Assembly: GCA_944392655.1 (NCBI GenBank)
Contig: CALXXL010000017.1
Span: 1-45,589 of the forward strand
Reading direction: 5' to 3'
From: an uncultured Victivallaceae bacterium
GTDB lineage: Bacteria > Verrucomicrobiota > Lentisphaeria > Victivallales > Victivallaceae
Length of the DNA stretch: 45,589 nt
A program made the translations under genes and the position numbers. The notes beneath the pieces were generated by a model, which ran no database searches, was not told where the DNA came from, and worked only from the letters and a program-made list of their open reading frames with translations. Positions 6,966 through 36,851 of this stretch are shown here, in pieces; position 1 is the stretch's first letter, and each line of letters starts with the position of its first letter.

Positions 6966-7078
6966 ACCCGATGACGGCAACACTGCGTTTTTTTACCGGA
7001 TTTTTCTTGATTTTTACATGGTTTTACCCGGTTTAAGTGCTACATTATCCGGAAAGTTCAACATACAGGAGTTTGATT

Positions 7079-33739: not shown

Positions 33740-36325
33740 TTATTCAGCTTTTTTGCACTTGAATGTGAGGGCGTTGTCGCCGGAATCGACTTCAAGCGTA
33801 CTGCCTTCCGGCAGATCTCCGCTGATGAGCAGACGGGATACCGGAGTTTCCAGCTCCCGTACGATTGCCCGTTTGAGCGGACGTGCGCCATAAGCTGGGT
33901 CGTAACCGGCTTCGGTAAGGAACTCCTTGCCTTTGTCGGTGATTTCAAATTTCACCCCGCGTTCATTCAAACGTGCGGCGAAGTTCTTAAGCTGAATGTC
34001 CACAATATTCATCAAGTCGCTCTTGGTGAGAGCGTGGAATATCAGAATTTCATCAACACGGTTCAGAAATTCCGGACGGAAATTCACTTTCAGTTCCGCC
34101 ATTACATCATCTTTAACCGCTTCCGGAGAATCAGGATGTTTCAGAATCTGCTGACTGCCGAGGTTGCTGGTCATGATGATGATGGTGTTCTTGAAGTTCA
34201 CCGTTCTGCCTTGCGAGTCGGTTATACGGCCGTCATCCAGCACCTGCAGAAGGATGTTGAAGACATCGTGATGCGCCTTTTCGATTTCGTCGAACAGCAC
34301 TACCGAATATGGACGCCGGCGAACCGCTTCAGTCAACTGGCCACCTTCGTCGTAACCGACGTATCCCGGAGGCGCACCGACCAGACGCGACACACTGTGT
34401 TTTTCCATATATTCGGACATATCTATTCGTATAATCGCCCGTTCGTCATCAAACAAATCTTCCGCCAGCGCTCTGGCCAGCTCCGTTTTGCCCACCCCGG
34501 TCGGGCCGAGGAAGATGAACGAGGCAATCGGGCGGTTCGGATCTTTCAATCCGGAGCGGGCGCGGAGTACCGCATCCGCCACGGCGTTCACCGCTTCGTC
34601 CTGACCGATTACCCGCAGATGCAGGTGGTCGGCCAACGCCAGAAGTTTCATCTTTTCACTCTGTACAAGCTTGCTTACCGGAATATGCGTCCAGCGGCTG
34701 ACGATTGCTGCGATATCCTCTTCATCCACATCCTCCTTGAGCAGACGTGACTCATTGTTTTCCCTGAGCGCGGTTTCCGCTTTCTTTATCTGCTCTTCCA
34801 TGCGCGGAATTGTACCGTGACGCAGTTCGGCCGCCTTTTCCAGGTCGTAGCGGCGTTCCGCATCTTCCAGCTGATGCCGGGCCAGTTCCAGAGCTTCACG
34901 CTGAGCACGCAGATCGGCAATCGCCTTTTTCTCGTTTTCCCATTTTGCGTGCAGTTCACTGGAACGTTCCTTGAGTTCAGCAAGTTCTTTTTCCAGATCT
35001 TCGCGACGTTTGATGGAAGCGGGATCTTTCTCCTTCTTCAGACCGGCGATTTCGATTTCCAGACGCATTGAACGGCGCTGAAGTTCATCGATTTCCTCCG
35101 GCGAAGAGTCGATTTCGGTACGCAATGTGGCGGCCGCTTCATCAACCAGGTCGATCGCCTTGTCCGGCAGGAAACGGTCGGAGATATATTTGTCCGACAG
35201 AACCGCGGCGGCAACCAGCGCACTGTCACGCAGCTTGATACCGTGATGTATCTCATAACGCTCTTTCAGCCCACGCAGAATACTTATAGTATCTTCAACC
35301 GAGGGCGGAGGCACCAGAACCGACTGGAAACGGCGTTCCAGCGCGGCGTCTTTTTCAATATATTTACGGTATTCATCCAGCGTAGTCGCGCCGATGCAGT
35401 GCAGTTCACCACGTGCGAGCAAGGGTTTCAGCAGATTGCCGGCGTCCATTGAGCCTTCCGAAGCTCCTGCGCCGACCACCGTATGCAACTCGTCAATAAA
35501 CAGTATAATATTGCCGTCGCTTGACGTTACCTCCTTCAAAACCGCTTTAAGCCGTTCTTCGAATTCGCCACGGTATTTCGCCCCGGCGATAAGCGCACCC
35601 ATATCGAGCGCAATCAACCGGCGGTTCTTTAACCCTTCCGGAACGTCGCCGCGGAAGATACGCCGGGCAAGTCCTTCAACAATAGCGGTCTTACCCACGC
35701 CAGGCTCACCGATCAGCACCGGGTTGTTCTTAGTACGCCGTGAAAGAATCTGAATGACACGCCGGATCTCTTCATCCCGCCCGATAACCGGGTCAAGTTT
35801 ATCCTGCTGCGCCATTTTGGTAAGGTCGCGGCCATATTTTTCCAGCGCTTCAAAGGTTGATTCCGGGTCAGCGCTCGTCACCCTCTGATTGCCGCGGATG
35901 CTCTGTAACGCCTTCAAGGCGGTTGCTGAATCCAGCCCCGATTCACGCAGTATCTCTCCGGCCTTGCTCGAAGAGTCGATCAACGCCAGAATAAAGTGTT
36001 CAATACTGATATATTCATCGTGCATGCTTTCAGCCTTTTTGGCCGCGCTGTTCAGCACTTCGCTGAATTCGCCGGACTGGTAGAGCTGACGGCTGCCACC
36101 GGATACCTTCGGCAGTTTTTCAATAGCGTTTTCCACTTTTCCGGCAACCCGGGTAAGCGGAATATCACTGCGTTTTAAGAGCGAGGCCGCCAGGCTGTCG
36201 TCCTGATCCAGCATCGCTTTCAGCAGGTGCAGAGTGTTAAGTTCCGGATTCCCGTTTTCCTGGGCGATGCTCTGCGCCGAAAGCAAAGCCTCACGGGAGC
36301 GGTTGGTAAGTTTTTCTATGTTCAT
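33740..36325 (-). CDS. clpB: ClpB disaggregase chaperone
   Basis: The 861-residue Hsp100 hexamer rescues aggregated proteins together with DnaK. It has an N-terminal Clp-N domain, a first AAA+ module with Walker A GEPGVGKT (206-213), the ClpB-specific coiled-coil middle domain (about 400-525, rich in Glu/Lys/Arg), and a second AAA+ module with Walker A GPTGVGKT (607-614). The ATG at 36325 has a strong AAGGAGG six bases upstream; the frame runs 13 codons further with no such site. No CIRCE (HrcA) element is visible upstream. Instead a near-perfect sigma-54 -24/-12 motif lies about 55-67 bases before the start. Confidence 0.97.
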
Positions 36326-36377
36326 AATCAATACCTCCTTCTTTACGTCATCAATTAGAGACACACTTTTTCTCTCA

Positions 36378-36392
36378 GCAAAATGCGTGCCA
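36378..36392 (-). promoter_or_regulatory. Near-consensus sigma-54 (-24/-12) promoter for clpB
   Basis: Read on the minus strand the sequence is TGGCACGCATTTTGC followed by T, preceded by C. It matches the known TGGCAC-N5-TTGC core at every core base, with the diagnostic GG and GC ten bases apart. The predicted transcription start is near 36366, giving a leader of about 40 bases ahead of the AAGGAGG site of clpB. No activator gene is present nearby. Confidence 0.55.
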
Positions 36393-36473
36393 GAATTTTA
36401 TCCAGGCGGAAAGGGGAGGGCTGGCAATAATAGTGCGTCATAATGGCTCAATTATCCTGAAAAGCTATATGTC

Positions 36474-36491
36474 AAAATGGCACATAAAGAA
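36474..36491 (+). repeat. Direct repeat of the rpmA start region (upstream copy)
   Basis: AAAATGGCACATAAA here is identical to the sequence spanning the rpmA start codon at 36600-36614, and 17 of 18 bases match when extended. The copy could encode a 12-codon peptide (MAHKEKITIFYN, stop at 36513-36515), but I see no good ribosome-binding site before it. The rpmA promoter candidate lies between the two copies. Confidence 0.6.
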
Positions 36492-36518
36492 AAAATTACG
36501 ATATTTTACAATTGAATC

Positions 36519-36546
36519 TTGATATTTGTTCAGTTGGCGGTATATT
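36519..36546 (+). promoter_or_regulatory. Candidate sigma-70 promoter for rpmA
   Basis: TTGATA, a 16-base spacer and TATATT end about 56 bases before the rpmA ATG. The match is reasonable (five of six at each hexamer, or close to it). Confidence 0.55.
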
Positions 36547-36602
36547 AAAAAATCTGATAATGGAAATATAAAAAAATTGTATATAAAACAGGAGAACATA
36601 AA

Positions 36603-36851
36603 ATGGCACATAAAAAAGGACAGTCAAGCAGCCGTAACGGTCGTGACAGTAATCCGAAGTTTTTAGGTATCAAGGCGTTCGGTGGTGAATATGTATCCGC
36701 CGGCAGCATCATCGTCCGTCAGCGCGGAACCCGTTTCCGTCCGGGCAAGAATGTCGGTCTGGGACGTGACTTCACAATTTTCGCTTTGATTGACGGCAAG
36801 GTTGTATTTGACAAAGCCAACCGCAGCGTAAGCGTAGCTCCGCTGGCTTAA
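36603..36851 (+). CDS. rpmA: 50S ribosomal protein L27
   Basis: The 82-residue protein of the large ribosomal subunit reaches the peptidyl-transferase centre with its N-terminal tail. The opening [19 protein letters not shown] and the segment [22 protein letters not shown] are diagnostic. The N-terminus starts directly at the mature sequence, without the processed Firmicutes-type extension. AGGAGAA precedes the ATG. In most bacteria rplU (L21) lies just upstream, but it is absent here. A terminator-like hairpin separates it from obg. Confidence 0.98.

Follow-up and report, generated by a model that had tools for sequence, protein, structure and literature searches.

We find that clpB in the 45,589-nt window (the whole stretch of DNA that was analysed) is preceded by a conserved sigma-54 −24/−12 promoter, and that clpB and the dnaK-groES-groEL genes, in this genome and across its order, probably form a chaperone regulon under sigma-54 and a two-component system, in which an NtrC-type activator is predicted to act at paired enhancers. 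Control of clpB by sigma-54 had been proposed in an initial annotation of this DNA, and is supported here by conservation of the promoter, by the presence of rpoN, candidate activators and enhancer-like sites, and by the failure to detect HrcA, RpoH or CIRCE. Our analysis goes beyond that proposal in two respects: dnaK-groESL appears to share the sigma-54 system, and a likely activator can be named. In the open-access papers searched, we found neither a description of sigma-54 controlling clpB in this group nor one of the present arrangement.

The elements of clpB and its proximal promoter region are the following.
33740–36325, minus strand: clpB, encoding the ATP-dependent disaggregase ClpB of 861 aa (NCBIfam TIGR03346 above cut-off; Pfam domains).
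36333–36340, minus strand: clpB ribosome-binding site AAGGAGGT, assigned from the sequence.
36366, minus strand: predicted transcription start (+1), placed by sigma-54 promoter geometry, counting 12 nt from the C in the GC at −12.
36377–36392, minus strand: sigma-54 −24/−12 promoter TGGCACGCATTTTGCT, an exact consensus match with invariant spacing, conserved upstream of both clpB and dnaK within the order.

The 15-mer TGGCACGCATTTTGC at 36378–36392 (minus strand) is followed by a T, has its GC at −12 and carries GG and GC exactly 10 bases apart (TGGCAC-N5-TTGC), so the exact match to the −24/−12 core claimed in the initial annotation is confirmed. The leader and ribosome-binding site described there are also found: AAGGAGGT lies upstream of the ATG at 36325, and the predicted leader, from 36366 to this ATG, is 41 nt long. 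We take the ATG as the start codon of clpB; ORF tools give a GTG at 36364 instead.

Taken on its own, the motif is not proof of a promoter. The clpB site is the single exact match to TGGCACGN4TTGC in the window, but when up to two mismatches were allowed there were 17 consensus matches where 16.8 are expected by chance, and the clpB element is thus weak on sequence alone. Genome-wide, exact TGGCACN5TTGCW occurs 5 times in 2.34 Mb, compared with 2 for the reversed control, and the looser pattern TGGCAYRN5TGCT gave 11 matches against 10 for its reverse; because this latter count is not above control, the motif by itself was not taken as evidence enough.

The significance of the clpB element comes from its conservation before both clpB and dnaK. 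ClpB was detected in all 60 relatives searched. Using the strict pattern TGGCAN7TGCW at 10–130 nt before the start codon, sites were found within the order, probably Victivallales, upstream of clpB in 46/68 cases and upstream of dnaK in 49/52 (counts that include the present genome). The opposite strand gave 2/68 and 0/52, and shuffled sequences averaged 0.03 and 0.01, respectively. Widening the search to 260 nt gave TGGCA-N7-TGCT in 48 of the 68 clpB and 50 of the 52 dnaK regions, with only 0–1 occurrences for spacers of 3–6 or 8–12 between TGGCA and TGCT; the initial annotation had suggested looking for such conservation in relatives, and it is evident. The aligned sites read TGGCAYG-N4-T-TGCT, in which GG and GC are invariant. 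The clpB site lies further away in L003, of the same genus (179 nt), and in L016 (205 nt) and L325 (246 nt), and around one fifth of the order's genomes (for example L004, L005, L007, L008, L027, L033 and L051) have no convincing site within 400 nt of clpB; dnaK retains its site in most of these. A chance likeness to the sigma-54 consensus, with an ordinary promoter driving clpB, would accord with the near matches in the window and the genome-wide count of 11 versus 10. We give this explanation virtually no weight, given that position, spacing and sequence are conserved in eight families at both chaperone loci, well beyond what shuffles or the opposite strand give, and that a matching enhancer accompanies the conserved element.

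This enhancer is a palindrome. Of 109 regions upstream of clpB and dnaK promoters, each 220 bp long, 32 contained the dyad GACA-N3-TGTC, where 0.4 would be expected, and de novo expectation-maximisation recovered a 17-bp palindrome, TGYGHCA-WWW-TGDCRCA, in ∼86% of the 109 regions, its copies lying ∼40–130 nt before the −24 element. To avoid circularity, the matrix used for testing was trained on dnaK regions only, with the genus of the present genome left out. It found matches in 39/57 clpB regions (0.5 after shuffling); conversely, a matrix built from clpB regions matched 49 of the 52 dnaK regions. Only two sites in the 45.6-kb window reached 7.5 bits with the dnaK-only matrix, both before clpB.
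36433–36451, no strand assigned: enhancer-like palindrome 1 (proximal UAS) GTGCGTCATAATGGCTCAA, 20.7 bits with the dnaK-only matrix, centred at about −76.
36467–36485, no strand assigned: enhancer-like palindrome 2 (distal UAS) ATATGTCAAAATGGCACAT, 12.4 bits with the dnaK-only matrix, centred at about −110.

Palindrome 1 was also recovered as a fit to the consensus by pattern search. The enhancer sites that the initial annotation proposed seeking upstream of clpB can thus be predicted at 36433–36485. Sigma-54 polymerase forms a closed complex that requires an ATP-driven activator, and the position of the two palindromes, 50–95 bp upstream of the −24 element, fits clpB to the layout of such an activator-dependent promoter. 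When 1.75 Mb (75%) of the genome was scanned, the clpB site ranked first of 14 matches of at least 11 bits. The second-ranked site, with 19.1 bits, is directly before the kinase gene of a kinase/NtrC-type regulator pair, and four relatives (L273, L280, L284 and L301) have strong sites at the matching end of their regulator locus. No −24/−12 element adjoins the enhancer before the kinase operon. The enhancer of the genome's own dnaK is weaker, at 12.7 bits. On the far side of the clpB enhancer region, rpmA (36602–36850 of the window, plus strand), with obgE after it, diverges from clpB. The gene rplU is usually found directly before rpmA; here rpmA is without it at that place.

In the present genome dnaK, groES and groEL are consecutive on one strand, and groEL stands just after dnaK across the relatives. 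One of the 11 genome-wide matches to TGGCAYRN5TGCT is ∼55 nt upstream of dnaK. Others precede glutamine synthetase, glutamate synthase and glutamate dehydrogenase-like genes (glnA-, gltB- and gdhA-like, identified by eye). Genes of these three kinds are classic sigma-54 targets, and the sites before them indicate that rpoN is at work in this genome. They include divergent −24/−12 sites between the glutamine synthetase and glutamate synthase-like genes (C11:52455–52703) and one before the glutamate dehydrogenase-like gene (C34:840–855), the C11 and C34 sites being covered by L054, L145 and L149. The chaperone enhancer was not found in these nitrogen gene regions.

A further −24/−12 site, at C12:6837 on the minus strand, faces another at 6974 on the plus strand. 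Behind the former, at L205:166–6797 (minus strand), are genes for an ankyrin-repeat protein, an enhancer-binding protein whose scores are to CARF-AAA-HTH models of the RtcR/PspF type, and two large proteins, of which one has SspE/HEC-06-like matches. This locus is possibly a sigma-54-controlled defence island.

The genome encodes RpoN (PF04552, E 6e-54) with an intact RpoN box, ARRTVAKYRE, and four true enhancer-binding proteins: two of GAF type, one of REC type and one with an unusual N-terminus. Both components that the initial annotation named as a check on its proposal are therefore present. The REC-type protein, at C1:199679–201031, combines a receiver, an AAA+ domain with GAFTGA at 219 and a Fis-type helix–turn–helix (PF00072, PF00158 and PF02954; HTH_8 match, E 3.8e-16). 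The gene for a soluble PAS-HisKA-HATPase kinase is directly upstream, completing the NtrC-family arrangement of regulator and partner kinase. The best NCBIfam models for kinase and regulator are AtoS and AtoC, both below cut-off. Orthologues of the regulator occur across the order, and the helix LGISRRTLHRKL (LGISRRT-type) is conserved in nearly all of those read. A protein of ∼305–336 aa, which is not the kinase and looks like a TIM-barrel (xylose-isomerase-like) protein, is encoded directly before the regulator in L274, L275, L279, L281, L295 and L300, an arrangement seen in many relatives.

The sequence evidence makes the C1:199679–201031 regulator most likely the activator of the chaperone promoters. 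In G003 and G034, which are 95–96% complete, its orthologue is the only enhancer-binding protein detected, and both genomes retain the −24/−12 element before dnaK and clpB, pointing to this regulator by elimination. Before dnaK they carry an enhancer of 23.7 bits; before clpB none of at least 9 bits was found. Two other types of candidate were set aside: L060 (C12:4778), the enhancer-binding protein beside the divergent −24/−12 pair on C12, which lies among ankyrin and DUF262-like genes and whose own region has no chaperone enhancer, and the GAF-type proteins, because they are absent from many relatives. If one of the latter (the GAF/NifA-like L057 and L058) nevertheless served a genuine sigma-54 promoter at clpB, chaperone supply would follow nitrogen or redox state and not protein damage. 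The four enhancer-binding proteins of the genome, the −24/−12 sites before the nitrogen genes and the RpoN dependence of groESL3 in rhizobia (PMC4842269) speak for such an arrangement. We consider it quite unlikely, however, since many of the relatives without GAF-type proteins retain the chaperone promoters, and the chaperone enhancer stands not in the nitrogen gene regions examined but before the NtrC-type pair.

The candidate mechanism that we favour is accordingly one in which clpB would be transcribed from the sigma-54 promoter at 36377–36392 and the NtrC-family response regulator would bind the two palindromes at 36433–36485. A signal, probably heat or protein misfolding, would cause the kinase to phosphorylate the regulator, which might then oligomerise at the enhancers and spend ATP on opening the sigma-54 polymerase that waits at clpB and dnaK-groES-groEL. 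The regulator probably also controls its own kinase/regulator operon. Binding of the regulator to the palindrome and the need of transcription for sigma-54 are what we infer; the signal is presumably heat or misfolded protein, as suggested by the nature of the target genes. The core chaperones would thus appear to be under an all-or-none, ATP-driven promoter that is silent without its signal.

Bacterial chaperone genes are known under the control of sigma-32, HrcA, CtsR or HspR, of which CtsR is known from Firmicutes. HrcA (PF01628) was found in 0/61 genomes. RpoH (TIGR02392) scored below the family cut-off in all 41 genomes searched; of 14 named genomes used as a control, two gave matches above it. 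No CIRCE-like site was present in the window with up to three mismatches, in agreement with the initial annotation, which had also noted none. The findings thus correspond neither to a sigma-32 (RpoH) regulon nor to an HrcA/CIRCE regulon. They also bear on the possibility that the −24/−12 element is real but that a sigma-70-type promoter provides most clpB and dnaK transcription, with sigma-54 giving a minor or developmental boost. Tandem sigma-66 and sigma-54 promoters are documented for Chlamydia hrcA-grpE (PMC7482065, PMC8762339), and a weak sigma-70-like match (9/12) lies at 36503–36532 on the minus strand. Such matches are nevertheless near chance in this region (3 versus 1.3 expected), and neither HrcA nor RpoH was detected that could regulate a promoter of this type, which leaves this division of labour unlikely. 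Sigma-54 as the main route to chaperone expression would offer a testable explanation of how heat shock is answered in bacteria that lack HrcA or RpoH, with a likely regulator and its DNA site named.

The system may reach beyond the order. Of 55 sampled genomes from elsewhere in the phylum, 27 carry an enhancer scoring 9 bits or more before clpB (shuffle mean 0.7), often paired with a −24/−12 element. We lean, with little to spare, towards an ancestral heat-shock system throughout the Verrucomicrobiota: ClpB, DnaK and GroESL would have as their main switch not sigma-32 and HrcA but sigma-54 with a sensor kinase and an NtrC-type regulator, and TGYGHCA-WWW-TGDCRCA enhancers would mark the compact regulon. 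The clpB leader of G123, from the same phylum, closely resembles that of the Opitutaceae Ereboglobus (L070), including the start MDFQKLTAMS, and this likeness points to Verrucomicrobiota as the phylum. A ClpB search among named genomes returned chiefly distant phyla, and a ClpB tree gave no resolution of the phylum. In the Opitutaceae-like L338, L340, L341, L344, L345, L358, L067 and L070, a −24/−12-like element ends 12–16 nt before the clpB start codon, so that the mRNA would be leaderless, starting at the start codon or immediately beside it.

The proposed regulon has the same targets, clpB, dnaK and groESL, as classical control by sigma-32, HrcA/CIRCE or CtsR; unlike there, RpoH and HrcA were not found in the order, nor CIRCE in the window. 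HsfA of Myxococcus xanthus is NtrC-type. The HsfA-HsfB two-component phosphorelay reportedly activates the heat-shock gene lonD (Ueki and Inouye 2002, cited in PMC9548883). This is likewise two-component activation of a heat-shock gene, with lonD as the target; a sigma-54 regulon of chaperones that shares a conserved enhancer is not known to us from that species. NifA is the activator of Bradyrhizobium groESL3. That operon, which is RpoN-dependent (PMC4842269), likewise places a chaperonin under a sigma-54 promoter. It is, however, one specialised copy of groESL, linked to nitrogen fixation in bacteria with sigma-32, whereas the present case concerns the principal dnaK-groESL operon together with clpB, and sigma-32 was not found. 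Neither clpB nor dnaK appears in a comparative study of sigma-54 (PMC3162934), and clpB is not mentioned in the Chlamydia papers searched.

In Chlamydia, two tandem promoters, one for sigma-54 and one of the sigma-66/CIRCE kind, serve the hrcA-grpE-dnaK operon (PMC7482065, PMC8762339). CtcB/CtcC (AtoS/AtoC) of Chlamydia trachomatis are likewise a kinase and an NtrC-type regulator that drive sigma-54 polymerase. CtcC is described as having no DNA-binding domain (PMC12282069) and would serve sigma-54 in general, whereas the regulator identified here has a conserved Fis-type helix–turn–helix (HTH_8) together with a conserved enhancer. Chlamydia also retains HrcA/CIRCE and the tandem sigma-66 promoter, while HrcA was not found here. 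The present results link the sigma-54 promoter of chlamydial hrcA-grpE-dnaK to what may be an older scheme among related bacteria.
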